Source: Cornus controversa (Eukaryota; Streptophyta; Magnoliopsida; Cornales; Cornaceae). From it: a stretch of DNA of 64,000 nucleotides. Under the pieces are notes generated by a model. The model was not told where the DNA came from and did no database searches. It saw only the letters and a list, made by a program, of their open reading frames with translations. The translations under genes were made by a program, and so were the position numbers. How positions within the stretch are numbered: the first letter of the stretch is position 1; every line of letters starts with the position of its first letter. The stretch spans positions 4,464,001 to 4,528,000 of the forward strand of contig CM048850.1 in NCBI GenBank assembly GCA_026545225.1, read 5' to 3'. Positions 1-55,313 of the stretch are shown here, in pieces.

Positions 1-224
1 CCTATGTCGAATCACACACCTTAGTGAACATTTAATTGTCCACACCCTTGAGAATCACTCACTTTCGAGCCTCAAAACTTTCTATGTTTGGAATCTGAAA
101 CTGAAGCTTACACCATTGGATAGAGAATCCAAAAATACTCAAGTTCAAAAAAAACCACACTCAATTCCGATTTAGAATGAAGAAATTACGTCGAAATGAA
201 GTTTTGGAAAAAGCTGTGAATAGT

Positions 225-430
225 AATCTCGATCAATCGAGATTTTCACCCCATCAATCGAAGAAAACAGCCTCTCGGTAACTTGGACCTGCAATATTTT
301 GATTAATCGAAGTTGGGACTTCGATTGATCGAAATAAAGCTTAAAAATTCATAAAAATTCGCCACCATTTCGATCAATCGAAATGGGAGTTTCGATCAAT
401 CGAAATGCATTTCGATTGATCGAAATGCAC
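225..430. repeat. cluster of TCGAT-YR-ATCGA self-complementary motifs in LTR A
   Basis: About seven copies, some partial, of a hairpin-capable motif (TTTCGATCAATCGAAA or TTTCGATTGATCGAAA: arms TTTCGAT/ATCGAAA around two central bases) lie at about 227, 253, 299, 318, 368, 391 and 408. The related LTRs of Y and W carry other palindromes in the corresponding place, just before the shared AATTGAG/TTGAGTATTTT block. Confidence 0.85.
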
Positions 431-1950
431 TTCGCAGCAACTCCAAAACACCTATACAAGATCCATTTGAACTCAAATCTCAACCAAACCACTTTGGATC
501 ATTCATAAAACATATAAATCATCCCCCAATGATATAATATCATACTCACACATCAACCTACACATTTGAATCTCAAATCTTGTACAATCATAGAAAACTC
601 ATCCTAAATTCTCAATGCACATAAAATTCAAGTGCATGAACCATTCTCATTTTTCAAAGATCATATTCATCAACTCATACATACAACCTAACTCACACAT
701 CGAAATCCTACAACCGTGATTCCAATATAAATCCACTCTTCAAAACCTTCATATCCAAGAGTTCAAGATATAAAAGACAAAAATGATACATTCATCCATT
801 AAACTCCAAATTCATACAAAATCCATGAAACCATACACATAAGGATTCAAATGAATATACAAGTTACATATACCGTGAATGTAACTATAAATCAACATAA
901 TCCACATGCCACACGCAGACATGGATAGCCAAAAACATAGTCCATACATATATCTCAAAAGATCCCCAAAATGCACCAAAATGCTCCAAGTAAGGAAGCA
1001 AGCTCTTTTCATCCATTCTCGGCTTCTTACCTGAAAAAAAATGTTTAGGGGAGCGGGGTGAGCAACACTGCGGCTCAGTAGAGATGCCCCTCCCCTCCTA
1101 GGTGTCGACCCGACACCGACCTACATGTCCCTCACTACATGGCATGTAAAATGCTTTCATGCACACGATGACATACAATTCAAGTATGAATGCACTTATT
1201 CATATATCATGCTTTTCAATACATATCATTGCTATAACAAGCCTAGCATGCATTCTAACATTCAAAACAACACATGGTCACATATATGTCATATGGCATG
1301 CATATCACTCTCATATGCCTACAAACCACAACCTAGCATATTTTTTATCATGCTTCAACAATGCACACTCTTGCTATAAAATAACCTAGCATGCATTCAA
1401 CATTTATACACACACACAACCAACATACAATCATATGATTTGCACCCCAAAATACACATAACCTACATATGCATATAATACACAATATAGCTAATCATGC
1501 TCTCATTTTTGCACACTTTGCACATATTCAACCCACACATCATATATTCATCAAGATGGATCTATCTAGCATGCCTAATCACAAGGGAAGAGGAAATATA
1601 AAAATTCAGCCCCTTGCCCATCTCTCTCACATACAAACTCAACCGAAAACCTCTCCGAACCACCCAAAACCCTAGAATCGACAACTAGAAGAGAAGAAAC
1701 ACCCCTACCTTGAAATTGGAAGCTATCCAAGCACTTATCAAATTTTCTAGCATGTTCCACCTTGCCGAAACACGAGTTTGTTCGGTTCAAACCGAAGCCC
1801 TAGCCGTCCCCTACACACTTTCCTTCTTCGGCAAATCACGAATCCAAGCCGAATGCACCCGAAATGTAGAGAGAAGGTGGAGGGATGAAGTGGGAGAGAT
1901 TTAGAGAGAGAGAGAGCCGTAAGAAATGTCTGATATATCTCAGCCCTAGA

Positions 1951-1958
1951 TATTTATA
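1951..1958 (-). promoter_or_regulatory. candidate TATA box of LTR A
   Basis: The minus strand reads TATAAATA here, about 35-50 bases upstream of an uninterrupted CT repeat (plus-strand AG run, 1902-1917), an arrangement like a plant core promoter. The Y LTR has the same CT-rich stretch, but its upstream sequence has drifted. This is a prediction from motif and spacing only. Confidence 0.4.
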
Positions 1959-2326
1959 ATATCTGGGGTGCCAAATGACCAAAACGCCCCCAAGTCACTT
2001 AACGTACCTTCCCGGGCTCCTTTTTCAATTTTGAAAACTCCTACGGCCTCGAAATCGCTTCCTTAACTCATTAAACATTTCGTTACACTCAAAATCAAAA
2101 GTAATTATTTTTCAGAAATTTCTCAAATTTTCGGGCCCACGTGGACCGCATCCCGGGCCCCTGTTTGACCAAAAAGTCAAACTTCTCTAAATTTTCCAAA
2201 AACCTCATAACATGTTTTTAAACATGTTTTCACTCTCGAAACATCCAAAACATCATTCGAAATGCATTTATAGCGAAAATGATAAAATTTTTTGAAAACC
2301 GGTCAAATTTGATTCCGGTCTCTACA

Positions 2327-2340
2327 ACCTCCCCACCTTT
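2327..2340 (-). other. polypurine tract of element A
   Basis: The minus strand reads AAAGGTGGGGAGGT immediately before the LTR start TGTAGAGACC. A few bases upstream is the ATTTCGTGGACGAAATTC context often seen before the 3' LTR of plant chromoviruses. This fixes the left LTR as the 3' LTR and the element as minus strand. Confidence 0.85.
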
Positions 2341-5328
2341 AAAGAATTTCGTCCACGAAATTAGCATCATACTCTAAATTGCAAGAGTGTTGTCACTAAA
2401 ACTTAAGTGACCTTCCCTATCTTCCTTCTATCATAGGGAATAATCATAACTTGCCGGTATCCAACACGCGGCTTCCATTCTGTAACCAACAAGGTTCTTG
2501 GTTATCACATCACACTACTTCGCTCCAAATTTCACAAAATATTAAACTATTGGCATATCTCAAAAGATGTCCAAATATCTCCAAGACTGTAGTGTCAACA
2601 TCTACTGTAACTGACACGACCATAAATTATCTCCCAAACCAAGTTTAGGAAGATCAAAACTATAACCAATTTACTTTCCAACCTACCCACTTTCCAATTA
2701 GTGAAAGTATGCATAGGCATCCCTTTCTAGTAATTCACCCTCCTTGAATCACAATTCTCAAAGTTCTAACACCAGACAATACCATGTTCACAATCCAAAC
2801 TTACACATTTCATCTGTGATCTGAGGCCAATGTTTGTTAAGGATTGATAACTCAATCTTGGGCTGGTTCAATCACCTTTCTCCAAAACTCATGAAATCTT
2901 TACTCCCGAAGTCTCATAATGAATCCTTGGATCCTTTCAATTTCACTGGTACCACAAGGTACGGTTCACAAGTAACAAAAATCTGTGAAAATCCCTATCG
3001 TCCATGCCATGATCCAGTTATGTCCCAAAACTACTCAAATCACATATGATAATCGAAACTCAATCTCTCAGGGTCACACCACGCACAATGATACATCCAT
3101 AGGCTAAATTGTCTCTCATGATGAAAATCTCGCATCAACAAGTGTGTCAATAGACAAAGCTACATCTCGATGACAACAATCACACTCTCAGGTGTGTCAA
3201 ATGGCTAAACTGCCCCTCAATGAAATCACAATATCCAGGGGTTGTGTCCATAGACAAAACTGCGTCCATAGTAACAACAACCAATCAACAATAGATGGGC
3301 CAATAGACAAAACTGCGTCCCCCACCACTGATGCGTCAACAGACAAAACTGCGTCTGAGTGACAACACCAACCACATATGCGACAATGGACAAAACTGCA
3401 CCCAGAGTCACCACCACTTGTCAATAGACAAAACTGCGTCTAAGTGACAATGATTGGGTCGATAGACAAAACTGCGTCCATACGACTCCGATCCTCAACT
3501 GATGTGCCAATAGACAAAACTGCATCTAAATGACGACACCACTCATATGCGACAATGGACAAAACTGTGCCCAGAGTCACCACCACTTGTCAATAGACAA
3601 AACTGCGTCTAAGTGACAATGATTGGGTCGATAGACAAAACTGCGTCCATACGACTCCGATCCTCAACTGATGTGCCAATAGACAAAACTGCGTCTAAAT
3701 GACGACACCACTCATATGCGACAATGGACAAAACTGCGCCCAGAGTCACCACCACTTGTCAATAGACAAAACTGCGCCTCAATGACAAGAGTCTCAACAA
3801 TGGATGGGTCAATAGACAAAACTGCGTCCATATGAGACCGATCCTCCAACTGATGTGTCAGTAGACAAAACTGCGTCTCAATGACAGCACCACAATGATC
3901 ATCCCAAAGTTTGTAGCCTTCCAAGAATATCAAATGTCCCCTCGAGTACTCTATCATGTACTGGAACTCATAACCTCAAGAGCGGTTTAAACTAACCTAC
4001 TCTTGTTATCACAATCTCAATCATACACTCATTTATGAGTAAGAGTTGTCATGCTCACAACATTTGAATTTCATTTCCTTATATACTGATACTCATCAAA
4101 TCAATTCCACAATCACTTAGACTGGACACATTGTAAGAGAAGTACTAATCGAAGAGAAATGGCTGGCCAGGCCGTTTCTTCCCGCTAGTCCAACCCCGAC
4201 TACATGCCTTTCTTGTCCTCACACATTAAAATCCCCATGAAATCACTGCTTAGGGACTTTCTCAAAGTCCTAAGCTCCCATAACTGGAGTTTAACATAAC
4301 TCCTACTTCTCAACTATCATTAGCTCACTCAAGCTCAAATATTTGGCATGTCTCATCAAATCTCTAAAACTAGAATCCCTAGGCGATAATAACACGCCTA
4401 ATAACCGAACCCCTTGTACGGTTCACTTTCACATCCTTCGGAGCACTCGCTCCCTAGAGTCCACAGTCTTTACCTCAAGACCTATCCGGTCTATCTCTAC
4501 CTTTAGTCTAAGGTAATATCCTCGACTAATCACATCAATCACTCACAGTGATATTTTCCTATAATTGAGATCATCAGTACTCAAAGTCATTCCATTATTA
4601 TCAACCATGATTTTCTAACTGGAATGCATCTCAGCATAATCCAAAGTCCCGTGTATCGTTACAATCCATATCAATCTCGTGCACTTAACATAATAAACGC
4701 ACTAACTAGAATAAGGCACATAAAGGGTGCACTTACCCAAACAAGTCACATAGTTCAGCCCAGTTTCATAGGCTATCACCCAATGGAATCCAATTCCAAG
4801 TCTAGGATCTTACATCCTACTAATTGAACAATCTCAAAGTTTATCACCATATGTCTATTTCAATGTCATTATCAGCTCAATCTTTCAAACCTCTACCTAG
4901 GTTTACCAAAATCTTCAAAATTTGGGACTTTTAAGTAGTGACTACATGTCACTACTAACCATGTGACACATAATGAAACATTAAAATGCAATGCTCAATC
5001 ACATGAATAGCATATTCCACGTAGCACATTACACATAACATGTTAAATCAAATAAACAAATACAATGCATGATATGACATATGATGCATCTAAACAACCC
5101 AATATTCTAGCCCTCGGGCTACAACTAGGAAAAATATCTACGACCACGCACAGTCCCGAAACATTCTCAACCTAAGCAATCGTGAAGGCAAGACCCAATT
5201 CCCTTAGTATACCAACATATACTCGTGATATGCAACTTAATATACTTGCATAAATCATCATTATAACTCATAAGGTAGAGATCGCGAATATACCTCAATC
5301 ACTGTGGACGAGTTCTTTGATACTTGGA
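2341..5328 (-). mobile_element. noncoding internal region of element A
   Basis: Between the gag and the polypurine tract there are about 3 kb in which I recognise no protease, RT, RNase H or integrase motif in any frame. The stretch is AT-rich and holds the 14-mer minisatellite at about 3090-3885. With gag as the only protein region, element A resembles the gag-only nonautonomous LTR elements described in plants as TR-GAG. It is equally possible that pol was replaced by unrelated sequence in this copy alone. Confidence 0.6.
3090..3885. repeat. minisatellite: 14-mer GACAAAACTGCGTC every 37-50 bp, with about 170-bp higher-order copies
   Basis: The core RACAAAACTGCGYC recurs about 15-18 times between roughly 3100 and 3870. 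From about 3374 to 3725 a larger unit is also repeated: landmarks beginning CATATGCGACAATGG fall near 3374, 3544 and 3713, a period of about 170 bp. The spacers between cores differ but belong to a few related types. It lies in the noncoding part of gag-only element A. Confidence 0.85.
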
Positions 5329-6447
5329 CTACTGTCCTGAACCACTAGGAAGGTTCCTCATACTTGTTCGCAAAACCTGAGCAAACTGCATTGGAGGGGG
5401 TGGCGGCATTGCAACTGAGTCGATCTGACTTGCCAGGAACTGATCGGTGCGGTTAAGAGACTCTGTCCTACCCCCTGCACCCTGTCCTTGAGGACAATTC
5501 ACTTTCAAGTGACCAGTCTGATGACAAAGGTAACAAATTTGTCCATCTGCTGGTGCCAAATGTATGCTGGGGCACTCAGACCTATAGTGACCCGGCTGCT
5601 GACAATGATGACACACTCTCCTTGACCAGACCGACTGTATAGACATGGAAGTCGTAGGCACTGAATATGTCATCCGCTGTCCCATTGATCCTTCAGATCG
5701 ATAAGGACCACTTTTCTGTTTATTCTTTGGCTGACTCTTAGAAGAATCGCACCTTTTCTCATCCTGTACCCTTTGATTGTCATTACCAAGCTCTTCTGCT
5801 ATTAGTGCTCTTTCCACCACTGTGGTATAGCTTGTCAATCCCAGAATTCCAACTTTATCTCACAAATAGGGCCGGAGACCTCTTATGAACTGTTTGACCT
5901 TCAACTCTTCCGTTGGAATCATCTCTTTCGCAAATCGAGCCAAAGAGGTAAATCTGGTCTCATACTCCATAACTGTCATCTCCCCTTGAAGCAAATCATA
6001 GAACTCGCGTCTCAAGCTATCCTTCACTGTTACTGGAAAATACTTCTCGAAGAATAATGTTTCAAACGTATTCCAATCCATTACCTCAATGTCATGGCAG
6101 TTCCCAATAGACTTCCACCAACGCTTGGCCTCACCCTTAAGGTAATGGGTGGCCACTTTCACCTTTAAGTTCTCCTCTACCTCAAGTATGGTAAGGAGTT
6201 CAACCATCTCATCTATCCAATTCTCAGCCACCATAGGGTCAGACCCTCCTGTGTACGATGGCAGATTATGCTTCCTAATGTGCCCCAATGTCAACATCAT
6301 CCTACTAGGAGCTGCTCTAGGTCGAGCCTGACTCTCCTCTTGTGTTTCTCTAGCAATTCGCTATATGGTCGCAACCATATCATGCACAACTTGCTCTCCA
6401 CTCATAGGGACCGTATCTGCCCTTTCACGAACTCTTCGTGGTGGCAT
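5329..6447 (-). pseudogene. gag: gag of element A (Tekay-like)
   Basis: This is the structural (capsid-nucleocapsid) polyprotein region of an LTR retrotransposon, minus strand, starting at the ATG that gives MPPRRVRERAD about 380 bases after the primer site. The middle carries the plant retrotransposon gag domain with the hallmark stretch GEAKRWWKS and the FEKYFP...REFYDL segment. The C-terminal part has two CCHC knuckles (CHHCQQPGHYRSEC and CYLCHQTGHLKVNC) that would bind RNA. It ends in a short proline/serine-rich tail, with no protease fused behind it. The reading frame is broken in about two places, so this copy is a fossil. The family assignment rests on motif order and the Met-tRNA primer site. 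Confidence 0.85.
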
Positions 6448-8471: not shown

Positions 8472-9748
8472 TAGCCTATAGAGACCGTGACCAATTTTGG
8501 CCGATTTTGCATTTTTCTCATTTTAATTGCCATAAATGCATTTTGAGTGACGTTTAACATGTTTTGAGTGTGGAGAACATGTTTGGGAAGTGTTATAAGG
8601 GTTTTGGTAAGTTTTCAAAAGAATTGGAGAAGTTTGACTTTTTGGTCAAACCGGGGCCCGGGATGGAACTTAAGTAGGCCTAAAATTTTGAAAAATATTT
8701 ATTTTTGGGAATGGCTTAGATGAAATATTTAGAGAGTAGAGGAAGTGATTTCAAGACCATAGGAGTTTTCAAAATAAAAAACAGAGCTCGGGAAGGTACG
8801 TTAAGTGGCAGGGGCATTTTAGTCTTTTTGCGGGCCAAGATGCCATTTAAATGCATGGCTGAGATTGATCCCAGCCATTTCATATGGATCTCTCTCTCTC
8901 TAACATTTCCCTCTTCTCCTCTCTACCTTCTCTCTACATTTCAGAGCCGTTCGGGTGCGATTCGAGTTTCGTCGAAGAAGGGAGATACGTAGGAGACGGC
9001 AAGAGCTTCTGTTTGAACTGAACAAAGTTGCAATCTGGCAAGGTAGACTCTGCTGGAAAATTGGTGAAGTGATTTGAAGGCCTTCATTTTCGAGGTAGGG
9101 TTCTTCTTCTCTCCTAATTGTCGATTCTAGGGTTTCGGGTGAAGAGAAGAGGTGTAGGTTGTGTATCACATGTTTTAGGAGAGTGAGAGGGGTGAAAAGT
9201 CATATTTTCTCCTTCTTTTGAGTCCTATCTTTGCACATTTGGTGTTCCTAGTGTTGGTTTTAGCATGTGGATTAAAGTGTGTGAGTGGGAGAAATTGGGT
9301 ATATAGGTGTTATGTGCTCAATTTGGGGTTTATGTGCAAATGCCTAACCTTGTGTCATATATGTGATTATATGTGGAATATATGGTGATTGAATGCATGT
9401 TAGTTCTATGTGTTAAAATTATGCATTGAGTATAGCATGAGTAAAGTATGCTAATTTTGAAGTTGTATGCATATGAGAGGTTATATACACGTGTTATATA
9501 TATATATGCTATGAGTGGTTTTGTGGAGATGAAATGCATGCTATATTCCTTTATAACTAGATAATGCATTGTGAAGCATGAATATTGTGTGCTTGAGTAC
9601 AATATGTTCAAAATGCATATATGGGACCGTTGTGAGGAAACGGAGAAAGGTGGTCAAATTGCCTAGAGTAGGTCAATACTCGATGAGGACGTTAGAGTGG
9701 TTAAACCACCTGGGAGGTAGGAGTTCTCAGTGAAAATCTTGTAAGGGT

Positions 9749-10032
9749 CTCATCACTTGGTAGGACCGATGTTCTCAGTGGTGTAGTCCGAAGATATCTT
9801 ATCACTTGGTAGGACCGATGTTCTCAGTGGTGCATTCCAAAAATATCTCATCACTTGGTAGGATCGATGTTCTTAGTGGTGCATTTTGAAAATGATCTCA
9901 TCACCTGGTAGGACCGATGTTCTCAGTCGTGTGTATTGAAATGATCTAATCACCTGGTAGGACCAATGTTCTCGGTGGTGCGGATTGAAATAGTTTCATT
10001 ACCTGGTAGGACCGATGTTCTAGGTGATAAAA
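9749..10032 (+). repeat. six tandem copies of a ~49-bp unit in LTR Y
   Basis: The unit core TCACTTGGTAGGACCGATG followed by TTCTCAGTGGTG starts near 9750, 9800, 9848, 9898, 9947 and 9996, a spacing of 48-50 bp. A looser copy precedes the array at about 9700. Each unit can pair TCACC with GGTGG around the central GGACCGATG. No such array was seen in LTR A, so it looks specific to this subfamily. Confidence 0.85.
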
Positions 10033-10904
10033 ATTTTGAACTTGTGTGGAAAATTGCCCAGGTCGTATGGTTGGTCAAGAATCATGTTAGGGTCTCGGGT
10101 TGAGTCCGAGAGAGAGACAAGTGTGTGGTTGATGCTTCCATTCTAAATTGTGAAGCATGCTATGTGTTTAATGCATTCTTTTATATATGCATTTCTTGTG
10201 AATGAACATGGTTTATGTTGGATGATACATGTAATGTAGTGGCATGTATTCATGTAGATCGTGTCGGGTCGGCACTTAGGAGGGTTGGGGAACCTTTACT
10301 GAGCCGCAGTAGTGCTCACCCCTTTATTCTAAACTCTTTTACAGATAAGGCGCTAATGACGGATGGGACTTGAGTGTCCAAGTGGAACTCTTGTATCATT
10401 TTGATACATTTTGGGATATTGTATATTTTATGGCTATCCGTGCTGGCTTGTGGCATATTGATTATGAAATTGTAGTCATGGTTGGATTTTTAGCATTTTT
10501 TGGACCTTATGCATGAAATCCTTGTAGTGACTATAAACTTGGAAGCTATTTGGATTTGGGATGTATATTTTGGACCCAATGAATGTTTTTGGGATTATAT
10601 AAATGTTATAGTTACATTATTCTATATGTAACTTGTGTTCTTCATTCGAATCCTGTATGTATAGAGATGAGGTTGGTTTATGAGTGTTTGTGGACATATG
10701 TAAAGATATGTGTAATCTTGATGAGAAAGAATATGGATTGTGAGATCTTTGTGATTCAAATGTGAGATTTGATAAATGGGTATGGTGATATAGCATTTCT
10801 AAATTATTTGAATGCTATTGGATGACTTCTAGGTGTTGGAAAGGTTTTGATAGGAGTTTTGAGGTGAATTTTGGTCAAAAAGGTGAAAAAAGGGTTCCCA
10901 GGTT

Positions 10905-11060
10905 AAATAAGTCGACTTACTTCTTTCTATAAGTCGACTGATTTGGACAGTGCATTTTAGAGCTTTCTAGAGCAGCAAATAAGTCGACTTATCCATTCAA
11001 TAAGTCGACTTATTCACTCATAAGTCGACTTACTTCTTTCTATAAGTCGACTAATACAGA
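10905..11060. repeat. cluster of AAGTCGACTT palindromes in LTR Y
   Basis: Perfect or near-perfect copies of ATAAGTCGACTTAT occur about six times within 155 bp, separated by spacers of similar length (including ACTTCTTTCTAT twice). The last copies recur in the 3' LTR fragment at about 12965-13000. The cluster sits just upstream of the LTR block shared with A and W. Confidence 0.9.
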
Positions 11061-11412
11061 TTTTCTAAAATTTGAAATAGGCATAACTTAGTCGTTTCAA
11101 ACCCGAATCAAGTGATTCTTTTTTTGAAATTGAGTATTTTGAAACCCTCTTTCCAATGATTTTATTTTTAGCCTATGATGATGAGCTTAAAAAGAGTTAT
11201 GTATCCGTGCTTGTGTGAGGGAATCATTTGAAGGGTGTATATTGGAGGCCCACTGATATATGTTGTATACACCAGTATATGTAGTTGATTAAGCTTCCAC
11301 AAGAGCTAAAGGTTAAAATGGTTTGTTCACGGGTTGAGTGAACAGGTTCACACTCGGGATTCGGGTCGGCCCTGGGGAGTCCCGGTGGTCCAGAATCCGG
11401 GGCGTGACAATA

Positions 11413-12950: not shown

Positions 12951-13353
12951 GACTTATTCACTCATAAGTCGACTTACTTCTTTCTATAAGTCGACTAATG
13001 TAGATTTTCTAAAATTTGAAATAGGCATAACTTAGTCGTTTCAAACTCGAATCAAGTGATTCTTTTTTTGAAATTGAGTATTTTGAAACCTTCTTTCCAA
13101 TGGTTTTATTTTTAGCCTATGATAATGAGTATACAAAGAGTTATGTATCCGTGCTTGTGTGAGGGAATCATTTGAAGGGTGTATGTTGGAGGCCCATTGA
13201 TATATGTTGTATACACCAGTATATGTAGTTGATTAAGCTTCCATAAGAGCTAAAGGTTAAAATGGTTTATTCATGGGTTGAGTGAACATGTTCACACTCA
13301 GGATTCGGGTCGGCCCAGGGGAGTCCCGGCCGTCCAAAATCTGGGGCGTGACA
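12951..13353 (+). repeat. 3' LTR portion of element Y
   Basis: These 403 bp match 11007-11409 of the 5' LTR with about 20 hand-counted substitutions and no length change. They end GGGGCGTGACA, followed by the target duplication TAGCC. Two AAGTCGACTT palindromes are included. Confidence 0.9.
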
Positions 13354-18584: not shown

Positions 18585-18675
18585 GGGCGATCGATCGCAA
18601 GAAAAAAAAATGAAAATATTTGACTCCCAGGTGGGCGATCAATTGCGCAAATTCTGGGGGATCGATCGCCCAATC
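18585..18675. repeat. GCGATCGATCGC palindrome cluster of element Z
   Basis: Copies of the form GGGCGATCGATCGC, GGGCGATCAATTGCGC and GGGGGATCGATCGCCC lie within about 90 bp. Upstream (18480-18560) are two CTCGGTCGACCTTGGG-like phrases that also recur in T and S. The cluster lies between the pol remnant and the 3' noncoding region, where T has its env-position ORF. Confidence 0.85.
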
Positions 18676-25999: not shown

Positions 26000-26130
26000 C
26001 CTATTCCTCACTAGGCGATTGATCCCCCTTGGGCTGGGCGATCGATCGCCCAGATGGTGGTGTCCCCAAATTGAGAAAAAATGGGGGTGATGGATCCCCC
26101 TTCAAATGGGTGATCGATCCCCCCTGCTAA
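26000..26130. repeat. GGGCGATCGATCGCCC palindrome cluster of element T
   Basis: One perfect GGGCGATCGATCGCCC and several decayed copies (GGCGATTGATCCCCC, GGGTGATCGATCCCCC) lie between the RNase H end and the env-position ORF. GGTCGAC phrases at about 26155-26205 accompany them, as in Z and S. Confidence 0.85.
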
Positions 26131-33370: not shown

Positions 33371-34735
33371 CATTCCAGTTCGAGAATCCTTCCTGGATGA
33401 CTAACTTTTTGAGGTCACTCACAAGAAACTTTCATGGTATGCTGATATTGTAAATTTTCTAGCAACTAGGAAGATCCCATCCTATTGGTCAAAATAAGAA
33501 AAGGATCGCTTCTATTCCCAAGTCTGTTCATATTTTTGGAACGATCCTCACCTTTTCAAGTATTGCCCTGACCAAATCATCCATCGATGTGTACCCGAGA
33601 GTGAGAGTCTTAGTATTCTTACTTTCTGCGATACACTAAAAAGTGGAGGTCATTTTGGTGCTCAGAAGACCGCTTCCAAAACTCTTCAATGCGGTTTCTT
33701 TTGGCCAACTATTCATCAGGATGCATACTTATTCTGTTGCTCATGTGAGCGATGTCAGTGCCTTGGCGTTATATCTTATAGAGATATGATGCCTTTAAAC
33801 CTTATTCTAATCGTCAATATTTTCGATGTTTGGGGCATTGACTTTTTGGGTCCGCTTCCAAAATCCTCCAATTTTGAGTTCATACTCAGGGCAGTGGATT
33901 ATGTATCTAAATGGATTGAGGCCTTGCCTACCAAAACCAATGACCACACAGTCGTGGTCAAGTTCGTTCAAATGAACATATTCAGTCATTTTGGTACGCC
34001 CCGATCCATCATCAGTGATGGAGGTAAACACTTTTGTAACTAGTTCCTATGAACCTTGCTACTCAAATACTCTATCACTCATAAGGTTGCAACACCTTAT
34101 CACCCTCAAACGAGTGGCCAAGTAGAAGTATCTAACAGAAAAATTAAGCAAATTTTAGAAAAATGGTTCGTCCTGATCGTAAAAATTGGTCACAACGTCT
34201 AAATGATGCATTGTGGGTGTACCAAACAACTTATAAAACCCCGATACTCATGTCACCCTATCGTCTTATGTATGGTAAGGCATGTAATTTATCGGTTGAG
34301 CTTAAGCACAAAGCCTTTTGGGCTATTAGGAAATTCAATTTTGACATGAAATTGGCTGGCTCGAATCGTAAGCTCTAATTGAGTGAATTGGAGGAAATAA
34401 AGAATGATGCGTACAAAAGTGCAAAAATTTATAAGGCAAGAACCAAAGCCTTTCATGACAGTCATATCCATGCCAAATCACTCTCTTCGGGCCAAAAAGT
34501 TTGGCTTTATAATTTTAGGCTTTGCCTATTTCTTAAAAAACTTTGTTCCCGATGGGATGGTCCGTTTATCATAAATTTCATCGCTCCCCACGGAGTGATG
34601 GAGTTAAGGGATCCCAAGGATGGAAGCTCTTGAAAGTTAATGGGCAAAGAGTGAAACCTTGCATGAATAGTCAAATGCAAATGGAATACGTGGATATAGT
34701 CAAATTGATGGATCCCGTATATTTAAAAGATTGAT
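33371..34735 (+). pseudogene. pol: integrase of element U
   Basis: The zinc-binding N-terminal region (33590-33770, CxxC pair in CCSCERCQ) precedes the catalytic core: DVWGIDFLGPLPKSSNFEF, YVSKWIEALPTKTNDHTVVVKF, SDGGKHF, and [22 protein letters not shown]. The C-terminal part has LMYGKACNLSVELKHKAFWA and a GPF...VMELRDPKDG...KVNGQRVKP segment. Order and motifs are those of Athila-type integrase. Broken in a few places. Confidence 0.85.
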
Positions 34736-34936
34736 TCATTTTTACGTCTCTTTGTAGACAGTAAACTTGGCATTTTTGCGGTCCTATCATATTCCGTGTG
34801 ACCCTTCGAATCCAAAAGGAATGTATCTAAGTGTTTGGGGTGTGATTTGTAGGATTGAACAATTTTTTTCATACTTGGGAAAATTTTGCAACACCATAGT
34901 CTTAAGGCACTTTGATGCATCAAAATCTACTTCGAT

Positions 34937-35290
34937 ATTAAATGTCCCATGTCCATTCAAAATCTAGTGATTTTTGCACCTTCTTTCGATACATGTTCGA
35001 TGCATCGAAGTTTTGATACATCGAAATTACTGGTTCGATGCATTGAAGTGTAGATGCATCGAACATGTATCGAAAGAAGGTGCAAAAATCACTGGATTTT
35101 GAATGGACATAGGACATTTAATTATCCTTAGCTGCATCAAAATCTACTTCGATGCATTGGTAATTAAATGTCCCATGTCCATTCAAAATCCTGTATTTTT
35201 GCACCTTCTTTCGACATATGTTTAATATATATACACTTCGATGCATTCAACCAGTAATTTTGATGCATTGAAGTGGGGCACGTGACTACA
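34937..35290. repeat. 70-bp inverted repeat and TTCGATGCATCGAA motifs in element U
   Basis: Arms 34937-35006 and 35053-35122 are reverse complements with about two mismatches around a 46-base spacer. A third, direct copy of part of the arm lies at about 35174-35225. The arms and spacer contain TTCGATGCATCGAA-type palindromes (about 34998, 35035, 35052), with decayed copies at 35140 and 35238. It lies between integrase and the env-position ORF. Confidence 0.9.
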
Positions 35291-38544: not shown

Positions 38545-39907
38545 TGATAAAAGTTGAATGTTATACATTCTCACACCTTTACTTACGTGTTTTAATCCCA
38601 TAGATGCACATATTGTATTGTTTTTATGTGTTTTCATATTTTTGATGATTTTGGGTTCAAAGCCAGAATATGACTTATTATGACTCTATTAGCATTTCAT
38701 AAATGTATTCTAAATCCGAGCATGCTTAATTGGATGTCTACATTGAGGATAATTGAAGTGCGGGTCAATACCGGAGTTGGGAAGCTGAAGGGTTGAAGGA
38801 GTCCAGAGAATGAGACTTTGTTGCATCGAAATGGCCATTTCGATGCATCTCAAATTTTTACTGAAAGATATTTTTCCCACTTGGCCACTTGTCAAGATTT
38901 GTTTTGAAGAAGCCTTGCACGAAATTTCTGTGATATTTTGAGCCTAAAGTCAAATATATATGTAGGAAATATGTAATAAAGAAACAAATCAATTTTCTTC
39001 TAATAGAAAACAAATAGAGAAATTCTAGAGAGAGAATGTGAAGTTCTAGAGAGGAAATGCTTTAAAGAAGGCTTTGTAAGGCCTTGAAGACCATTTTGAG
39101 CATGGATTCGTCTCTGTCTATAGAGTGTATTAGCCCACAATGATCAACTAATCCTTCTCTAGGGTGTAGACAAACCCCAATCTTGTAACTATGTTCTAAT
39201 TGTAGTGAATTGGAATTTTTATGTATTTTTGTGTATATGTACCTTACCTTGAGCCTTATGATTAATATAAGTATAAAAATTCAGTATGTTCATGTGTTGT
39301 GATTTATCTTTCTTATCTTAGAATGTTTAATTTTCTTCACATATTCTTCAAACACTTGTATTATCACAAAAACTACAAGTGATGGCTTGGCACTAGTTTT
39401 CACTTTAACATACATAACTAGATTTGCATAGTCCATGCCTAGAGATGGCAATTTAGCTACACTTAGTTAATTAGGTAACTAGCTAGGCAGGAAAATTGCA
39501 CATATCGAAGATGGACTATAGTTTTTAAGGTGTATATATCTTCTTAACGGTGACATTGTAGGCCACAAGCCAAATGCGCTGTTTAGTATACATTTGCATA
39601 TATTCCCCAATTTATTATAAGTTTTACATGTTATGAAGCTAGTGGTGAAGTCTCAACTCTAGTCCTTTATCTTTTTCTTAAACTTCGTTATTTAATTGTC
39701 AATTATGTTTTTAAAGTAGAGTAAACAAATAACCCAAAAACTTGTTTGTAAGTCAAATGAGAAACAACCTTCAATCTTAGCACATTATTCTAATGTAGTC
39801 TCTATGGGACCGAAACCCTCAACTTATAACCCCATCCTTCAAGGATTCATTCTATTGCGAGTGGTAAAATATTATTTGATTTTTGAAAACCCAAAAGGAC
39901 CACATCA
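38545..39907 (+). repeat. 3' LTR of element U (1363 bp)
   Basis: It starts TGATAAAAGTTGAATG after the polypurine tract and ends GGACCACATCA, so TGAT...ATCA as in Z/T/S. A perfect 26-bp palindrome lies at 38822-38847 (TGCATCGAAATGG joined to its reverse complement). The next bases (from 39908) are the gag of V. Confidence 0.85.
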
Positions 39908-40528: not shown

Positions 40529-42379
40529 GTTATGCTCTGATTTCTGACACCTGGTTAAGAGCGAGAAAAATTGGGGTGAACAATGAAAGTCCTACCTGGT
40601 TCACACTTATAAATCTCTCAATTCTAGAATCTTAGAGTTGCACTTAGTGCATTGGAAATAGGATCCAAAAATACTCAACTTAAAAAAAAACCATGCTCAA
40701 TTCCAATTTAAAACGAAGGAATTATGTCCGATTAAAGTTTAGACCAATTTCAGAGCATACTGTGAATAGTAATTATGATCCATCGCAACTACAAAGGTAA
40801 TTATGTCCATTAAACCCTAATGAATTATCTCAATCACTAATTCAATCCGGAATCGTAATACCTACATACGTTTACCTACGTATAACTTGACCTCAATAAC
40901 CTATTATGGGTCTGTTAAATGACGTCCCTTAATTCTCTAATTCTATTTCAATGTCCCATCCAGCCACACATTATGATGTATCATAATGTTAGTTACGATC
41001 TATCATAATGTACGATGTATCACACAAGTTGCGTAAAATCCTACGAAATCTCCTAGAATCCCACTCAAATCCTGACTTAATTATGATATATTGTGATGTC
41101 CACTTTAATGCATCATAATTTATGATACATCACTGAAGATGTGTAACATCTTGTGAAATTCCCTGGAATCTCACTCAAAACACTTAACTCTTTACGATGC
41201 ATTGCAATGGGATTTACTATGCATCGTCGTATCATGATGCATTGTAATGGAATTTGTGATGCATCGTAATCACTCAAACTGTTGTAAATATAAACCACCA
41301 AGTGATTACAATTAGTCATTCTTATGCCAATTCTTAATTCACAACATACGTATACATATTCTATGAAATTTCTAAACATTCTAAATGATCCACACATCCT
41401 CCATATAATCCAAACAACTACATTAAACTCCAATTGATTATACTCACAAAACATATGCATTGAGATTCAACTATACACCTTACATTGCATTCTTCAAAAG
41501 TTATACATAAGCCAAAAGGGCGATTACATTTGCAATTATAGTATGTCAACATAACTCAACTGTATATACAACTTATTTAAAATAGTTGATATGCCACAAA
41601 CTGGCATGGACGTCTATACACATATGATCCAAAAGTAAGGCAAAAGTCCACTCAAACCCTCTAAGCTAATCAAGTCTAATCCTCCATCGGAGCTTTATCT
41701 GAGAAAGAGTTTGGGGGAAGGGGGTGAGCATACAACTACGCTCAGTAGGACTGATCCATCCAACTCTACCTTAACTCAGGCAGGCATGCATGAATGTATA
41801 TGAAGTCTCTACATTACTATATGACATATATTCATTATTTTCATACTTAAAACATACACTTCTAGAAACCATAAGTGATGCTTCACATTTTAACACATGT
41901 AAAATTTATAAGGGATCATAGCTCTCAAATAAACTCACACCACATATACCCGAAAATCAATTCAACTGAGGACTTCATCTTGTCTCATCCCTAGTAAGGG
42001 TTGTTTTGGGACCACATACTCTGCTTACGCTTTATGAGTTGCAAACCCGACGGAAGCGACATCCACTTCACCAAGTTTTGGGTCTTGCACCCTAGATTTT
42101 GAAGCCTTTATTAATTATCACACATGCCCCAAAAATGCGACTTTCTCACATAAATGCACATTGCCACATAACATATCAAACCTTAAGATTTTCATAATTT
42201 TCACCAAATGCATAACATTTACATGGTCAATGCATTTCAATTCTCAACTAATGTATATTCAATGCATTTCAATCATCTCATGGATATCACAATACTTATG
42301 CATTTTTAAGAAAATCTTCTTTCATGCATTTAACCTACACATGGGGTCAAATCTCACACAACTCTCAAATGAAAAAATC
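40528..42379 (-). repeat. 5' LTR portion of element V
   Basis: Minus-strand Tekay-like LTR sequence collinear with the second half of LTRs A and Y. It has the CTGAGCGTAG...GCTCACCCCC segment at about 41720-41752, the CCAGTTTGTGGCATAT segment at about 41588-41607, the palindrome cluster at 40970-41285, and the AATTGAG/TTGAGTATTTTTGGATCC block at about 40665-40710. Its upstream part is not seen beyond about 42380. Confidence 0.75.
40970..41285. repeat. ACGATGCATCGT-type palindrome cluster in LTR V
   Basis: Decayed copies of TTACGATGCATCGTAA (such as ATTATGATGTATCATAAT and TTTACGATGCATTGCAAT) occur about ten times, in the same LTR position and with the same motif as in W. Confidence 0.8.
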
Positions 42380-42931
42380 TCCAATTCATTGAAGTTAGAA
42401 CATATTTACAAGACTAGGGTTTGTCAAAACCCTAGAGAAGGATTAGTTGATCATGGTGGGCTGGAAGCACTTCATAGACAGAGATGATCCCATGCTCAAA
42501 ATGGTCTTTAAGGCCTTACAAAGCCCTCTTTGAAGCTTTCCCTCTCTAGAACTTTATTTTCTCTCTCTAAAATTATATATATGCTCTTTATTACAAGAAT
42601 TGTGATATATTTCTCTGTTACATATTCTCTAGCTATATAACTGATCTGAGGCTCAAAATATCATAGAAATTTCTTGCAAAACTTTATCCAAGCAAAATTG
42701 TACAACAAGTGGAAAAAATATCTATAAAAAAATATCTTCAGCAGGTTCGGGTGATGCATCGAAGTAGGGACTTCGATGCATCAAAGCTGCAATGCATCCA
42801 AGTAGGCAGTTCGATGCATCAATCTTCCTTCTTCTGCAGATCTTCAACCTAAAAACTATACAATATGTGCAGCTATGGGATCAAAATATATAAGTAAAGG
42901 CGCAAAAATGTATAACATTCAACGCTTATTA
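42380..42931 (-). repeat. fragment of a U-type Athila LTR
   Basis: In the minus direction it starts TAATAAGCGTTGAATG, like the U LTR start, and matches U at 38545-39210 (TGTTATACATT, CATAGCTGCACATATTGTAT, ATGATCAACTAATCC). It carries GATGCATCGAAGT / ACTTCGATGCATC palindromes at about 42753-42782 and 42808-42820. It lies exactly between the oppositely oriented LTRs of V and W. Confidence 0.8.
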
Positions 42932-44007
42932 GTGAGCATTCATGAGATGGACTCAGAGTCATGGAACTCCCTTTTTAGTTATTTTCATTATTTGGCACGT
43001 CCGGAATGTGGACTTAGTGCATATTGACTTATGTATGAAACTTAGACTTGATATGTTGCTTTTATATTTCAAGAATATGTTGAGATTGTGATCTTATGAT
43101 TTGAATGCTCTAACTATATATGATAAGTTTGACAAATCTTGAGGATTATGTAAAATTGATGTTTTCTTGAAATAGGTGTTGACAATGCAAATATTATCAT
43201 TTCTTTGTGTTTCAAGTGTATGAGGTGGAATCTAATTGTGATGAATTATCACTTTGTGGATGTTTGGAATTTGTGGAAATGATAATTATGTTCTATGATT
43301 GTATTTTTAGGATAAGTAGGGGATAATAAAAATGATTATTTTAATTATTTGGTAGATTTGTTATTGTTCCAAGTTGAGTGATTACGATGCATCGTAATTC
43401 CCATTACGATGCATCATGATATGGTGATGCATTGTAAACCTAATAACGATGCAGCATAAAAAGGGTGGAGTGTTCCATATAAAATCCAGTAGGTTTTGCA
43501 GGATGTTACGCATCTTCAGTGATGTATCGTAACCAACATTACGATTCATCGTAATGTGCAGTTGGGTGGATTGAGATCAACTTGGGCATAGATTGGGGGT
43601 AAAATGTGTGGCCACATGTGGGGGCCATGGTGGGTTATTAAAGTTAAGTCATAGTTAGGTAAACGTATGTGGGTGATTATGATTCCACATTAATTCAATG
43701 ATTTAGGTTGTTCATTACAATTTTATAGACAAATTCCCCTTTATCTCTACGAGCAAGTTCCGGAATTGGTCCAACATCAATCGGACATAATTCCTTCATT
43801 TTAAATCAAAATTGAGTGTGGTATTTTTCAAATTGAGTATTTTTTGGATCCTCTTTCCAATGGGCCAAGTATCACTCTGAAATTCCAAACACACAGGGAA
43901 TTGAGTTCTAGAATTGAGCGATTTATAAGTGCAAATCGGGTGGGATTTTCACTATTCACCCCCATTTCTCTCACTCTTAACCGGATGTTGGAAATCGGGG
44001 CATGACA
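42932..44007 (+). repeat. 5' LTR portion of Tekay-like element W
   Basis: Collinear with the last ~1.05 kb of LTR Y (from about 10360), starting near GGACTCAGAGTCATGGAACTC and ending GGGGCATGACA just before the primer site. It has a palindrome cluster at 43378-43560 and the AATTGAGTATTTTTTGGATCC block at about 43837. Confidence 0.85.
43378..43560. repeat. TTACGATGCATCGTAA palindrome cluster in LTR W
   Basis: ATTACGATGCATCGTAAT at about 43381, then CATTACGATGCATCATG, GTGATGCATTGTAA, AACGATGCAGCAT, GTGATGTATCGTAA and ATTACGATTCATCGTAAT: six copies in 180 bp, in the slot filled by other palindromes in LTRs A and Y. Confidence 0.9.
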
Positions 44008-50301: not shown

Positions 50302-51814
50302 CGATTCGTGTGTGAGTGTGACTCAAAAAGTATATCAATTAAAAATTTCCACACTTTGCAATAGAACGAATTCCTTGCAGAATAGGGCTATCGAAAGGGG
50401 TATCGTACCTCAGGGATTATGGTCTGATGAGTTGGAATACTGAATTAATTCTAATTAAATTTAAGAGAAAAGAATTTTGATTTTTAAACTAATTAAAAAG
50501 TAAAATAAAATCAATCAAAGTAATTAGAAAGTGAAGATAATATGAGAGAAATCTAGGGTATTTGACTTCACCACTAACTCCACAATCAATGGTCAATTGA
50601 ATCAGCTATGGGGAATTACATCATGCATAAGTGGTGTCGGTGGCTACAAGCTCACCTTCATCCATCAAGAAGATAACATATGATTAAGGCTAAGTCATGG
50701 ACTATCTTCGATTGGCATGGGCCATCTACCTAACTACTCTAATCTAGGGTGTAGTATGGTTCATCTTCTCTAGGCATAATCCATCAAAGCTTTTAATGAT
50801 ATATTCAGTGATTACCATTGTGTAATAATCGCTCTCATGATCACAGAAAATAAGAGAGATTGAGTTCAATAACAACAACTAAATATCTAAGACAAGATAA
50901 GAAATCATTAAAACTGAATTTACAAGACTTTTATTGCTCAATTCTATAATAAGAATCCTCTAAATTACACAATCTATGCATGTATATAAAGGTCCCCAAT
51001 AATTAAAACAATCAAACCATTGATGCTTTGTTAGGGCTACATCAAAACCCTAGTGGATGAACTAGCCGCTCATGGTAGAAGCAGAAGCTTCAACTGTTGA
51101 GGAAGAAGGTATCATCTTCATGAATTACGCATATGACTTCGTTCTCCAATGGCTCTGCAAGTATGTCTTCTGTTCTGTCCTCAGCCCTCTCAGACTCTCC
51201 AATCTCTGTATTCTTCCCCCCCCCCTTTAACTCAGCCTCCAATTCTTCACTTTATACCCTAAGAGAATACACCAAAATCCTAATCCAATTAGGAATTAAT
51301 TAGGTTTTCCCGCAGCACTAATCAGGTGGGTTTTTCCTACTGACATTCGGCCCAATTTTTGACCCACTAGAAGTCCAATTCACGAACTTTTTGTGAAATA
51401 CAAAAGTGTGCAAAATTAAATTTTGTTCAATTCGATGTAAAAATGAAGTCAATTTGAGGCTCGAAAATAAGACTTTTGGTCCATTTTTCAAAATGGGATT
51501 AAGACTGTATTATGCGCAGATTTGGGCTTCAGGCCCGAAACTTTCTTAAGCAGCTGTAATTCTCTTGGACCTCTTCCTTGGGCTGATTTGAGTTGACATA
51601 AATATTTAAATGAATCTCCTTGATGTAGGTTTCATCTAACCATTTTGGATGTCTTCTTTAAAAGCCCAAAATCATGGTTTTAACTGAAATAATCATTAAG
51701 GCCCTGCAAATACAGAAAACACTAAAACAAGGTAAAATAACAAAATAATATATCACTAAGAAGATAAAATACATAAGTTAAGAGGTTAGAATGCGTAACA
51801 TTCAACGCCTATCA
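50302..51814 (-). repeat. S-array LTR 1
   Basis: In the minus direction it starts TGATAGGCGTTGAATG at 51814 and ends ...CACACACGAATC at the left boundary. 1513 bp. By hand it differs from LTR 2 at about four places: the left-most base, two substitutions near 50388 and 50477, and a C run of 10 against 9 near 51216. Confidence 0.95.
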
Positions 51815-51829
51815 CACCCCCAAACTTAC
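51815..51829 (-). other. polypurine tract of S unit 1
   Basis: The minus strand reads GTAAGTTTGGGGGTG before the LTR start TGATAGG. The same tract recurs at 56826-56840 and 61837-61851. Similar AAGTTTGGGGG motifs occur internally near 53079, 53216 and 54731. Confidence 0.85.
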
Positions 51830-53468
51830 ATATTGCTAGTCCCTTAGCAATAGAATAAAATAAAACTAAAATAAAGAAACTACTAAACACTACCTAAACT
51901 ACCCAGCTCCACTTTCGTGGGAGAAACGATTGCATTTAGCATATGCAACAAGTCTTTAAACTCCTAGGTTCCCCCTAATGGACGAGTATAGTCTTGTGAG
52001 GGTTTCCAGAAATGTTACCCACAAACATTCAAAACTCTGTTTCAACATTAATTCAAGAAGAAGATTACAATACATAGTTACAAACTTGCATTCAAGAATA
52101 ATTTCAAACTTTCAAATTCCACAATTCAAAGCAATGGTCCCCACACATAATTCACATCAACGTATCTCAAAATAATCAAGTCTAGCTCTCTCGTGTAAAG
52201 TGAACTAGCAGTCCTCTCATGTAGCATAACCCAGCTCTAAATATATTAAGGCACATACCCCTTCAACTCACTAGCTCCCCTCATTGAAATCATACTTCCA
52301 AACATGAATACATGACTTCTTTTTTCTATTTTTTTTCTTTTTCATTGCTTTATTAGTTGTGCAATGTCTTGATCTATTAAGCTTTCTGAAATATCCATAT
52401 AGCAACCTTTCAATCAGTGACTCCCAAACTAGATGGCTTTAGGGCACTAGGCTTAAAGATACCCCGAAGAACCTAATTACTCGAATCAATCAGGCTACAA
52501 ATCAAGACAACCAACGCTCATCTTTTCTCACCCTTTCACTTTTGACGCGAACACTCCGTGCTTCCTGAGGCATAAAGGCCCAGTTACTCATAAAAAAGAT
52601 CAAATTGATTTGTTTATTCATCACTTTTTTCCTTCTTTTTTTTTCTTTTTTTTCATTTAAGTCAAGTAAAACATATCATCGGTACTCATTCTCAAGAGAT
52701 ACTAATTAATATCAAGCATATGTAACTCAATAACTCAAAGCATAAGTAAATACCCCATAAAATTATGCTAGTGTTTTCATGCATGTAAGGAAACTAAAAT
52801 CAATCACTCCAAAACATGTTATTGCAAACCATGATTAAAACCACTTAATTTAAACCATAGTTTCCAAGAATTTAAAACATACTCAAAAATTACAAGTTAT
52901 GCACCTACATAAGGTATTAATCCCTTGAATAATGTTAAAACATTCTATCTAAAAACAAAACAAAATAAAATAAAATAAATAAACTAAGAAAATAAAATAA
53001 ACAAAAACCCTAAAATAAGAAGAATTTCACAAAAATTTCCCCCAAAATGAAATAAAGCACATAAATAGGCATCGCCTCACCCCCAAACTTAAATTGTACA
53101 TTGTCCCCAATATACACCAATCAAAACATAGAGAAGGGTAAAAACGATGTTACCAGGACCATGGAGTAGTGGAAAGAAAATATAGCAAACCAATATAATG
53201 AAGGTAATGCAAGCACACCCCCAAACTTGGATGTTACAACCTGTCAAAACAAACCACTATACCCCAAAGTACAAGTGAAATAGTATGGGTAAAAATAAAT
53301 ATGAAAGAGAAAAATCCTAAATAAAAGAAAATTTCTTTTTTTTTATTGTTATATTTTTTTTTTAAATAAAAATCTAACTACAGAAAGAAAAATAAAAATA
53401 AAATACAAAAGATAGTTACCTTCCTGTCAAGGATGTGGTGGTGACTGAGCATCTGGATCCAAGTTCGC

Positions 53469-54599: not shown

Positions 54600-55049
54600 A
54601 GAAATAGAAAAAAATTGGTTGAGGAATTAAACCAAACACTTGGCGTGCACAATTGAATTGTATCCTTCAACCTCCTCTTTTTGTCACTTTTTTCACTCAA
54701 ATTGAATAATTAAATTCACCAATGAAATCCCCCAAACTTGGTCTTCAAAAGCCCTCAAAAAGATTTGCACAATTTTGCCAAAGAAAAACTTCACTTACTT
54801 TGATGTAGAACTTGAAAAAGTGAGAGTTTCCTTGAGAACTAGTGAGGATCAATCTGGTTTTGATGTTGATGTTGATGATGATCAATGTTAAATACTTGTT
54901 TAAGAATCACCAATTAAAGAAAATAAATTCCCGATTCAAGTAGGACTTAAATTGGGGCTCAAAGAGGTCAAGGAAGTAAGTAGTAGCATCAAAATAGGAG
55001 AAAGAGGCTTTAAATACCAAAAAATTTAGGGCAGCCCATATTTTTGCCC
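54600..55049 (-). mobile_element. leader of S unit 1 between palindromes and ORF
   Basis: Noncoding AT-rich leader of about 450 bp with an AAGTTTGGGGG motif near 54731 and a short GATGTT run near 54860-54880. The same leader, with the GATGTT run at about 25825, occurs in T. Nothing else was recognised. Confidence 0.7.
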
Positions 55050-55162
55050 TGAGCGATCGATCCCCCTAGCCATGGGCGATCGATCGCCCACCTGCTGGTG
55101 GGTGTCCTTTTGAAACATCATGGGGCGATCGATCCCTTTCCAATGGGGCGATCGATCCCCCT
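55050..55162. repeat. GGGCGATCGATCGCCC palindrome cluster of S unit 1
   Basis: A perfect GGGCGATCGATCGCCC at 55074-55089, with GAGCGATCGATCCCCC, GGGGCGATCGATCCC and GGGGCGATCGATCCCCC copies around it. Two CCATCGCCCAAGG phrases follow at about 55184 and 55226. The cluster recurs 5011 bp to the right. Confidence 0.95.
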
Positions 55163-55313
55163 TCTGGTAGCCTATTGGACCCTCCATCGCCCAAGGTCGA
55201 CCGAGACATGTATTTTTGGAGTCTCCATCGCCCAAGGTAGATCGAGAGCACGTTTTTTCACCCATCTTGAGTCCAAATACCTCGGTGCACCTCTTGGCAA
55301 CAGCGCCAAAAAT

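Follow-up and report, generated by a model that had tools for sequence, protein, structure and literature searches.

Why do related LTRs at this locus carry, at the same position, clusters of short self-complementary motifs that differ from one LTR to the next? The window, by which we mean the whole 64,000-bp stretch of the Cornus controversa genome analysed here (C6:4464001-4528000, within an assembly of 771,699,077 bases in 61 contigs), contains four such LTRs, referred to as A, Y, V, and W. The reading we favour, probable though by no means assured, is that the clusters are U3 cis-regulatory arrays of putative sites for a dimeric factor, replaced as modules.

All four clusters lie where the initial annotation of this DNA had placed them. 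LTR A (1..2326, minus strand) is a 3' LTR recognised by its similarity to LTR Y; its 3' end falls outside the window, past position 1, and its 5' end at 2326 adjoins a purine tract (TGTAGAGACC after AAAGGTGGGGAGGT). Its array (227..425, minus strand) consists of six 16-bp sites of the TTTCGATYRATCGAAA type, at 227-242, 297-312, 319-334, 368-383, 390-405, and 410-425, the first of which has the compensated form TCTCGATCAATCGAGA. Five of the six copies have CA or TG at the centre, so the 16-mer quoted for A pairs at only 14 of 16 positions. LTR Y (8479..11409, plus strand) is followed by the primer-binding-site-like TGGTATTAGAGC and carries six 14-bp sites with a AGTCGACT core (array 10907..11055, plus strand; starts at 10907, 10929, 10979, 11000, 11020, and 11042). 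LTR V, which ends at 40528 (minus strand), contains seven degenerate sites (40971..41269, minus strand), the best being TTATGATGTATCATAA at 40971-40986. LTR W ends at 44007 on the plus strand, before TGGTATCAGAGC, and has six sites (43382..43554, plus strand), including TTACGATGCATCGTAA at 43382 and TTACGATTCATCGTAA at 43539. Decay in V can be seen where the W copy ACATTACGATTCATCGTAATGT corresponds to ACATTATGATACATCATAATGT, both arms having changed in the pattern that CpG decay would give. A TGGTATCAGAGC-like primer-binding site, presumably the complement of initiator tRNA-Met, directly follows Y, V, and W.

To assess chance, 14-mers with at most one mispaired position were counted in each segment and in 1,000 dinucleotide shuffles of it. 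The slot that holds the array has seven such near-palindromes in A (0.74 expected) and six in Y (0.38 expected), values that 0/1000 shuffles reached in either case. W has two (0.45 expected; 84/1000 as high), with a longest palindrome of arm 9 (2/1000 as long), and V has one (0.91 expected; 595/1000), which is not above shuffles. By these counts A and Y are significant alone, W only through its longest arm, and V not; the V/W family of the sample described below (FAM2) is significant as a group (48 vs 12.4 expected in 16 LTRs). Outside the slot, LTR A is also enriched (13 vs 2.75; 0/200 shuffles), and LTR Y has an excess of perfect palindromes of at least 10 bases (8 vs 2.21; 0/200) without an excess of near-palindromic 14-mers (4 vs 3.08). 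The 3' block of Y is enriched as well (3 vs 0.43; 9/1000), and those of A, V, and W show no palindrome excess over shuffles.

The LTR block shared by these elements has 3,927 matches in the assembly (1,947 + 1,980), compared to 1 for the reversed pattern. We used 90 of the 100 places listed among these matches (L009-L098), a non-random set of mismatch-free loci on contigs C1 and C2. They gave 92 segments, including two extra block matches inside the fetched loci, and with A, Y, V, and W the sample comprises 96 LTRs. These were aligned on the shared downstream block, and the slot is the segment just upstream of it. A site class (GATCGATC, AGTCGACT, GATGCATC, CGATCAATCG, or CACCGGTC type, by rules that we set and that include decayed forms) could be assigned in 75 of the 96; the 21 LTRs with no assignable class include 16 of the 47 in FAM0. 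Palindromes in excess of dinucleotide shuffles, which the initial annotation had suggested looking for in each subfamily, were found in four classes (approximately 4- to 8-fold) and were absent in the CACCGGTC class. By family, slots contained 128 palindromes vs 21.2 expected in FAM0 (47 LTRs), 68 vs 10.5 in FAM1 (20 LTRs), and 9 vs 1.1 in A. FAM3, into which L043 was put by hand for these counts, had no slot excess (2 vs 1.8; 5 LTRs), and five leftover LTRs (22 slot palindromes vs 3.2, for the most part from a single AT-repeat row) were left out. Individually, 25/47 LTRs of FAM0, 15/20 of FAM1, 8/16 of FAM2, and A (1/1) were above all 20 of their own shuffles.

Upstream control segments were near expectation in FAM1 (11 vs 12.2), FAM2 (16 vs 13.2), and FAM3 (2 vs 4.2) and raised in FAM0 (73 vs 33.2). 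Downstream controls were near expectation in FAM2 (8 vs 8.4) and raised in FAM0 (63 vs 19.3), FAM1 (67 vs 9.4), and FAM3 (64 vs 3.2); as far as the segments were read, this excess appears to come from TATA-like repeats and the GTGAACnnGTTCAC motif. A second palindrome peak, 120-200 bp past the block, appears, to the same extent, to consist of TATA-like or simple AT sequence and GTGAACnnGTTCAC, and smaller peaks lie at -680 to -600 and near -1200. GTGAACnnGTTCAC is itself a second palindrome near the LTR end, outside the slot (13282-13295 in the window; approximately +200 from the block in FAM1).

Is it symmetry or sequence that the copies have in common? Within an LTR, copies chosen for their symmetry agree at 0.41-1.0 per position near the dyad and at approximately 0.2-0.5 further out, agreement reaching 7 bp from the dyad in FAM0 and FAM1 and 9 bp in FAM2 and A (more weakly at the outermost two positions). 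This bears out the observation that copies within one LTR are more alike. Since they are alike to 7-9 bp from the dyad and unlike beyond, it is the site and not a repeat unit that is conserved; symmetry by itself would not produce such likeness. The commonest half-sites, read outward, are GATCGCC, GACTTAT, CATCGTAAT, and nATCGAAAT. Only core parts are shared between families, among them the ATCG half-site core of FAM0, FAM2, and A. The claim that each LTR has its own palindrome thus holds for the family-specific sites but not for the core CGATnnATCG, which is common to A, V/W, and FAM0 and occurs in three of the five main classes. Pairs of CGATnnATCG within 30 bp occur at 34,170 places in the genome. 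The reversed pattern gives 11 and the control CpG palindrome CGTAnnTACG gives 1 (30 in its own reversed form). AGTCGACT pairs number 1,593 vs 59 in the control, and exact copies of the 16-bp site in three arm combinations number 38,763 vs 5 in reversed-pattern controls.

Sites within an array are also regularly spaced. In the sampled LTRs, 59/126 neighbour distances are 20-24 bp. Among CGATnnATCG pairs listed on C1 (90 of 100 listed, from the first 2.3 Mb, with near-identical copies left out), spacing is 20-22 bp in 52/90, with a second mode at 16 bp (21/90). Of the 40 distinct AGTCGACT spacers on C1 (from 50 of 100 listed rows, each place appearing once per strand), 32 measure 20-22 bp and 23 exactly 22 bp. 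Strict helical phasing was considered and rejected: 20-24 bp dominates, yet many of the listed CGATnnATCG pairs are 16 bp apart, half a turn off approximately 21 bp, so we claim a layout and not a phase.

We also looked for repeated words without regard to symmetry, defined as an exact 8-mer with at least three G/C in at least three direct copies, with the slot set at -350 to -60. Such words occur in 42/96 slots, compared to 1/96, 0/96, and 2/95 in three other LTR segments. The dyad score is at least 0.8 in 31 of the 42 slots, a level found at 17% of random places, and below 0.8 in the other 11. These include arrays that are not symmetric: L013 (GGTTCGCA, four copies; dyad score 0.50) and L055 and L050 (GCGCTCGA, three copies; 0.67 and 0.72). 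In L021 and L043, which have CACCGGTC (0.56), symmetry is limited to ACCGGT; L049, L063, L066, L090, L096, and A have decayed or off-centre symmetric sites (0.70-0.79). With 10-mers and one mismatch allowed, repeated words are found in 64/96 slots vs 14/96, 8/96, and 7/95 elsewhere, and in 12 of the 64 the word itself is perfectly symmetric. The CpG observed/expected ratio is 0.83 in the slot, 0.40 upstream, and 0.68 downstream.

That these differing clusters occupy a homologous slot, as first proposed, is borne out on both of its sides. The downstream block is common to A, Y, V, and W (in A at 53..203, minus strand, by block match and 75.8% identity to 43773-43923). Y and the FAM0 LTR L086 are alike upstream (identity 0.70-0.88, bins -1080 to -660) and downstream (0.58-0.78, bins -60 to +240), and within the slot their identity is close to random (0.40-0.58, bins -600 to -120). 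Similarly, the identity of L052 (AGTCGACT) to L087 (CACCGGTC) is 0.75-0.93 over bins -60 to +180 and drops to 0.28-0.58 over bins -360 to -120. The family clusters were built on slot and upstream DNA, so their match to site class is partly circular; this is not so for a tree built from -60 to +200, with the slot excluded. In this quick tree, in which 54/90 inner branches are open, site classes fall in clades, with 6 changes among the 75 labelled LTRs, in agreement with the proposed turnover by class; with unlabelled rows as an extra class there are 17 changes vs a shuffled mean of 55.3. A CACCGGTC clade (L021, L043, L087, and L088, with the unlabelled L044; branch 99) is nested in AGTCGACT rows, enclosed by branches of 90 and 85; the remaining CACCGGTC rows, L042 and L095, are elsewhere on the tree, at open forks. 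A is placed among CGAT-GC-ATCG rows, a position that is unsure because of its long branch.

The same kinds of site recur outside these LTRs. In the window, another repeat has seven TTCGATGCATCGAA-type sites (X35; 34911..35272, plus strand), downstream of an integrase fragment (33498-34043) and with 3 near-palindromes vs 0.92 expected (67/1000 shuffles as high). A 26-bp perfect palindrome with ATCGAAATGGCCATTTCGAT (X38; 38822..38847, plus strand) lies in an LTR-like repeat that belongs with L104 and L105, and two GATCGATC-core palindromes lie in yet another repeat (18587..18672). Further GATCGATC-core palindromes that resemble FAM0 sites were noted at 26034-26053, 55073-55090, and 60084-60101, the latter two within 5,012-bp tandem units. 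Approximately 2.7 such units lie head to tail at 50303-64000 with 99.9% identity, which would reflect a tandem array of very recent origin or else an artefact of assembly; their ORF is weakly Transposase_32-like (37 bits; family cut-off 45).

Nine stretches around listed site pairs elsewhere in the genome (L100-L108), which by their appearance we infer to be LTRs of some lineage, form the groups L100/L102/L108, L101/L103, L104/L105 (with X38), L106, and L107. With palindromes masked, similarity among the groups and with X35 is absent or only short: 57-75 bp at 72-77% between L100 or L102 and L104 or L105, 31 bp between L104 and L108, and 41 bp between L101 and X35. L100, L102, L104, and L105 match W, and L104 matches V, where the V and W segments include part of an X38-type repeat (42373-42786). 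The AGTCGACT site is common to FAM1, L106, and L107, which are otherwise without clear similarity. L106 has nine AGTCGACT sites, 22 bp apart in 4/8 neighbour spacings, and four of them are ATCAGTCGACTTAT, the same 14-mer as ATAAGTCGACTGAT of FAM1 on the other strand; if the TATA-like sequence gives the sense, the L106 array would be opposite in strand to that of FAM1. TATA-like sequence (consensus matches) lies downstream of the arrays in L100, L106, and L107, and no match to the TATA pattern was found in L101, L103, or L108. In the A/Y/V/W group, TATA candidates picked by eye are at least 200 bp from the array.

Recurrence in such units bears on whether the elements themselves could supply the reader of the sites. 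Pfam identifies Retrotrans_gag, Ty3_capsid, and zinc-knuckle domains in element A, and RVP_2 protease and RVT_1 downstream of W, assigned to that element by position. Ty3/gypsy gag/pol domains are therefore present among the window elements, in keeping with the Ty3/gypsy part of the Tekay-like label first given to them. As to the chromodomain that a Tekay element would carry after its integrase, one A copy (L099) has no ORF longer than 69 aa in the 1.8 kb ahead of its 3' LTR. An anti-silencing protein of the VANC kind, encoded by the element and recognising clusters of its own family, would have a parallel in VANC targets, which are family-specific noncoding motif clusters that co-diverge (PMC5735166, PMC10398659). 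We nevertheless consider this very unlikely, as the same sites are found in several seemingly unrelated LTR-like units and a partial Pfam scan of 20 ORF pieces from decayed copies found no further DNA-binding domain.

Element A raises the question of whether the sites could instead serve recognition between packaged RNA genomes, as dimerisation or packaging signals. Its gag and zinc-knuckle ORFs (5329-6360, minus strand) are followed by self-similar repeats (3085-3893), no ORF longer than 91 aa was found before the 3' LTR is reached, and in one other copy (L099) the 1.8 kb before the 3' LTR contain no ORF longer than 69 aa. Element A (2326-6360) thus looks gag-only and non-autonomous, and we take it to resemble TR-GAG elements, which are gag-only. 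It would need a partner, and its LTR sequence is self-complementary, both of which suit a packaging signal. However, the sites are common to seemingly unrelated units, their centre is mostly the non-self-complementary TG/CA (133/180 counted sites among the listed CGATnnATCG pairs), and they would lie in U3, which makes this explanation the most improbable of those considered here. As a separate observation, A-type LTRs occur in runs of two or three at intervals of 7.1-7.5 kb (C7:13679301/13686798; C3:1992134/1999231/2006329; C1:6310475/6317967/6325459), which suggests LTR-internal-LTR-internal-LTR tandems.

If secondary structure were selected, as RNA hairpins or DNA cruciforms that act as siRNA sources or RNA signals, sequence would drift and pairing would be kept. 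Predicted RNA folding is well below shuffles in the slots of A (z -9.9) and Y (z -8.4), and downstream segments are not (z -1.8 to +0.8); the other 13 slots folded range from -4.9 to -1.1, with weak values in W (-1.6) and L052 (-1.1). Arm covariation, which had been suggested as a test, is present for TTTCGAT/TCTCGAT. Exact copies with matched arms number 12,789 (TTTCGATnnATCGAAA; control 1) and 17,430 (TCTCGATnnATCGAGA; control 1), and those with mixed arms 4,307 + 4,237 = 8,544 (controls 2 + 1), or 45% of the approximately 19,100 expected from half-site frequencies of 0.44/0.56 (expectations computed by hand from genome counts). Related families with different fixed arms would also reduce mixed counts, so family structure can produce part of this deficit; in the listed CGATnnATCG arrays both arm forms stand side by side, with 37 paired and 13 unpaired sites of 50. 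At the flank position tested in the AGTCGACT class there is no mixed deficit (557 + 523 vs approximately 982, or 110%; mixed controls 24 + 26), symmetric flanks numbering 276 and 692 (controls 39 and 9). Among core-chosen sites of the sampled LTRs, covariation is seen at flank 2 in FAM1 (56/70 vs 41.7) and FAM2 (32/53 vs 20.0) and at flank 3 in the A type (14/14 vs 6.4), with p values that are too small because related LTR sites are not independent. It is absent at flank 1 in FAM1 (22/70 vs 18.0; one flank is usually T and its counterpart G) and at all five positions in FAM0. Covariation is thus strong for the TTTCGAT/TCTCGAT arms and absent at the position tested genome-wide in the AGTCGACT class. 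The palindrome regions of maize Sireviruses are small-RNA hotspots (Bousios et al. 2016, as cited in PMC5311732 and PMC10760457), which would fit a structural role. Against this, array copies share sequence besides symmetry, the same cores return in other LTR-like units, and in some LTRs the slot is taken up by arrays that lack symmetry. We therefore regard selection on structure as unlikely.

The initial annotation took selection to act on self-complementarity and not on any particular sequence. We weighed this reading first and set it aside. The core CGATnnATCG recurs across families (34,170 vs 11 and 1), identical sites turn up in LTR-like units that otherwise resemble each other little or not at all, the arrays in L013, L050, and L055 are not dyad-symmetric, and covariation is strong in one class and absent at the position tested in another.

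It is also conceivable that the clusters are a mutational by-product, in which short tandem duplication and hairpin-templated (quasi-palindrome) correction make the motifs uniform and more perfect, and amplification of the elements spreads them, with little selection on the sites. Amplification would account for the high copy number and templated correction for arm covariation, and the hypervariable slot and the palindrome excess beyond it in some families are consistent with such a process. However, the 14-18 bp sites agree while the spacers between copies differ, layout and cores are found again in other LTR-like units, and exact 8-mers in at least three copies are nearly limited to the slot. 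In our judgement such an origin is improbable.

We return to the array of factor-binding sites in U3. The sequences themselves show the arrays, their slot and family specificity, a layout that recurs at approximately 22 bp, the reappearance of sites in other LTR-like units, and the switches between classes; the factor, its host origin, the U3/promoter role, and the mechanism of exchange are what we infer. Each array would comprise approximately 3-7 copies (9 in L106) of a site that is 14-18 bp long and usually dyad-symmetric, read by a sequence-specific dimeric DNA-binding factor, probably from a small group of host factors related to one another; the dyad would exist because the reader is usually a dimer. 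An LTR family would keep its own version of the site, leaving copies alike as spacers drift. The arrays occupy a hypervariable part of the LTR that is flanked on both sides by conserved segments, and this part, or a site in it, would occasionally be replaced by another, through recombination or template switching between LTRs or through turnover inside the array. A site read by a protein is favoured by alike copies with unlike spacers, by cores in seemingly unrelated units, and by use of the site in either orientation; the regular spacing and the presence in the slot of arrays that lack symmetry point the same way. Of the three roles first suggested, a dimeric host factor appears to fit the sequences best, RNA hairpins are possible, and recognition between packaged genomes seems a poor fit. 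It should also be noted that arm covariation at some positions exceeds what independent half-sites need, and that the unclassed LTRs, FAM3 without an excess, and palindromes outside the slot count against the factor model as well. A silencing cost of the kind suggested for maize Copia elements (PMC10760457) may come on top through RNA folding, which is strong in A and Y.

Tentatively, and with more doubt than confidence, the arrays could be a common, switchable cis-regulatory code, in which dyad sites approximately two DNA turns apart in U3 can be loaded with any of a small set of sites. Relatives would switch between sites and unrelated elements converge on them, driven by competition for host regulators or by escape from silencing.

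Palindromic site arrays are already known from the LTRs of Sireviruses, which are Ty1/copia elements. As described by Bousios et al. (2010; PMC2829016), Sirevirus RMs are present in 8-32 palindrome copies per element, clustered in the LTR upstream of the TATA box, with within-element identity of 66.5-100% (their Table 3), a common core, and a centre and flanks that vary between elements. The core is CGG-CCG in 12 of 13 elements (Tnd-1 lacks it), and the motif was absent from the classic retrotransposons that the paper compared; a regulatory role was proposed, and the paper left open which protein reads the arrays. Similarly, multiple near-identical dyad motifs are clustered in the LTRs studied here (21/96 having no class), and the Tnd-1 motif ACAATCGATTGT resembles the CGAT cores. 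In contrast to Sireviruses, the cores here are CGATnnATCG, AGTCGACT, ACCGGT, GCGCTCGA, and GGTTCGCA, with no CGG-CCG; the carriers include Ty3/gypsy-type elements; and related LTRs differ in class, whereas the same class can occur in LTR-like units that are not otherwise clearly similar. As in the maize Sirevirus regions, this is a palindrome-rich, fast-evolving part of the LTR with strong predicted folding; here it belongs to other element lineages.

Dense, family-specific clusters of short motifs in noncoding DNA also recall the targets of VANC in Arabidopsis VANDALs, which change together (PMC5735166, PMC10398659). VANDALs are DNA transposons with an element-encoded binder and motifs in tandem repeats, and the string 'palindrom' does not occur in the 2017 text on VANC (PMC5735166). 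A precedent for replacement is RLG_Quinta, in which an upstream LTR segment was acquired from a family of another superfamily, the copia RLC_Gisela, with the 3' part conserved; that segment is approximately 162 bp, nucleosome-positioning, and has no site array (PMC11302176). That U3 regions differ between LTR subfamilies is general knowledge (PMC10794571), and palindromes have also been discussed as insertion targets (PMC6911290). Judging by titles and the beginnings of abstracts in the open-licence literature, we recognised no earlier description of arrays like these in the LTRs of Tekay or other gypsy elements, and text searches there with six palindrome strings returned no plant-transposon paper, going by titles. 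As far as this search shows, three things are new: carriers of Ty3/gypsy type, a homologous slot that holds several alternative site classes within a single genome, and the reappearance of these classes in other LTR-like units.

With 38,763 exact copies of one 16-bp site and related LTRs that differ mainly in class, this genome provides a natural experiment in which the factor might be found and binding told apart from folding. Should the sites indeed be exchanged as modules, the arrays would represent a concrete route by which retrotransposons change their host control.
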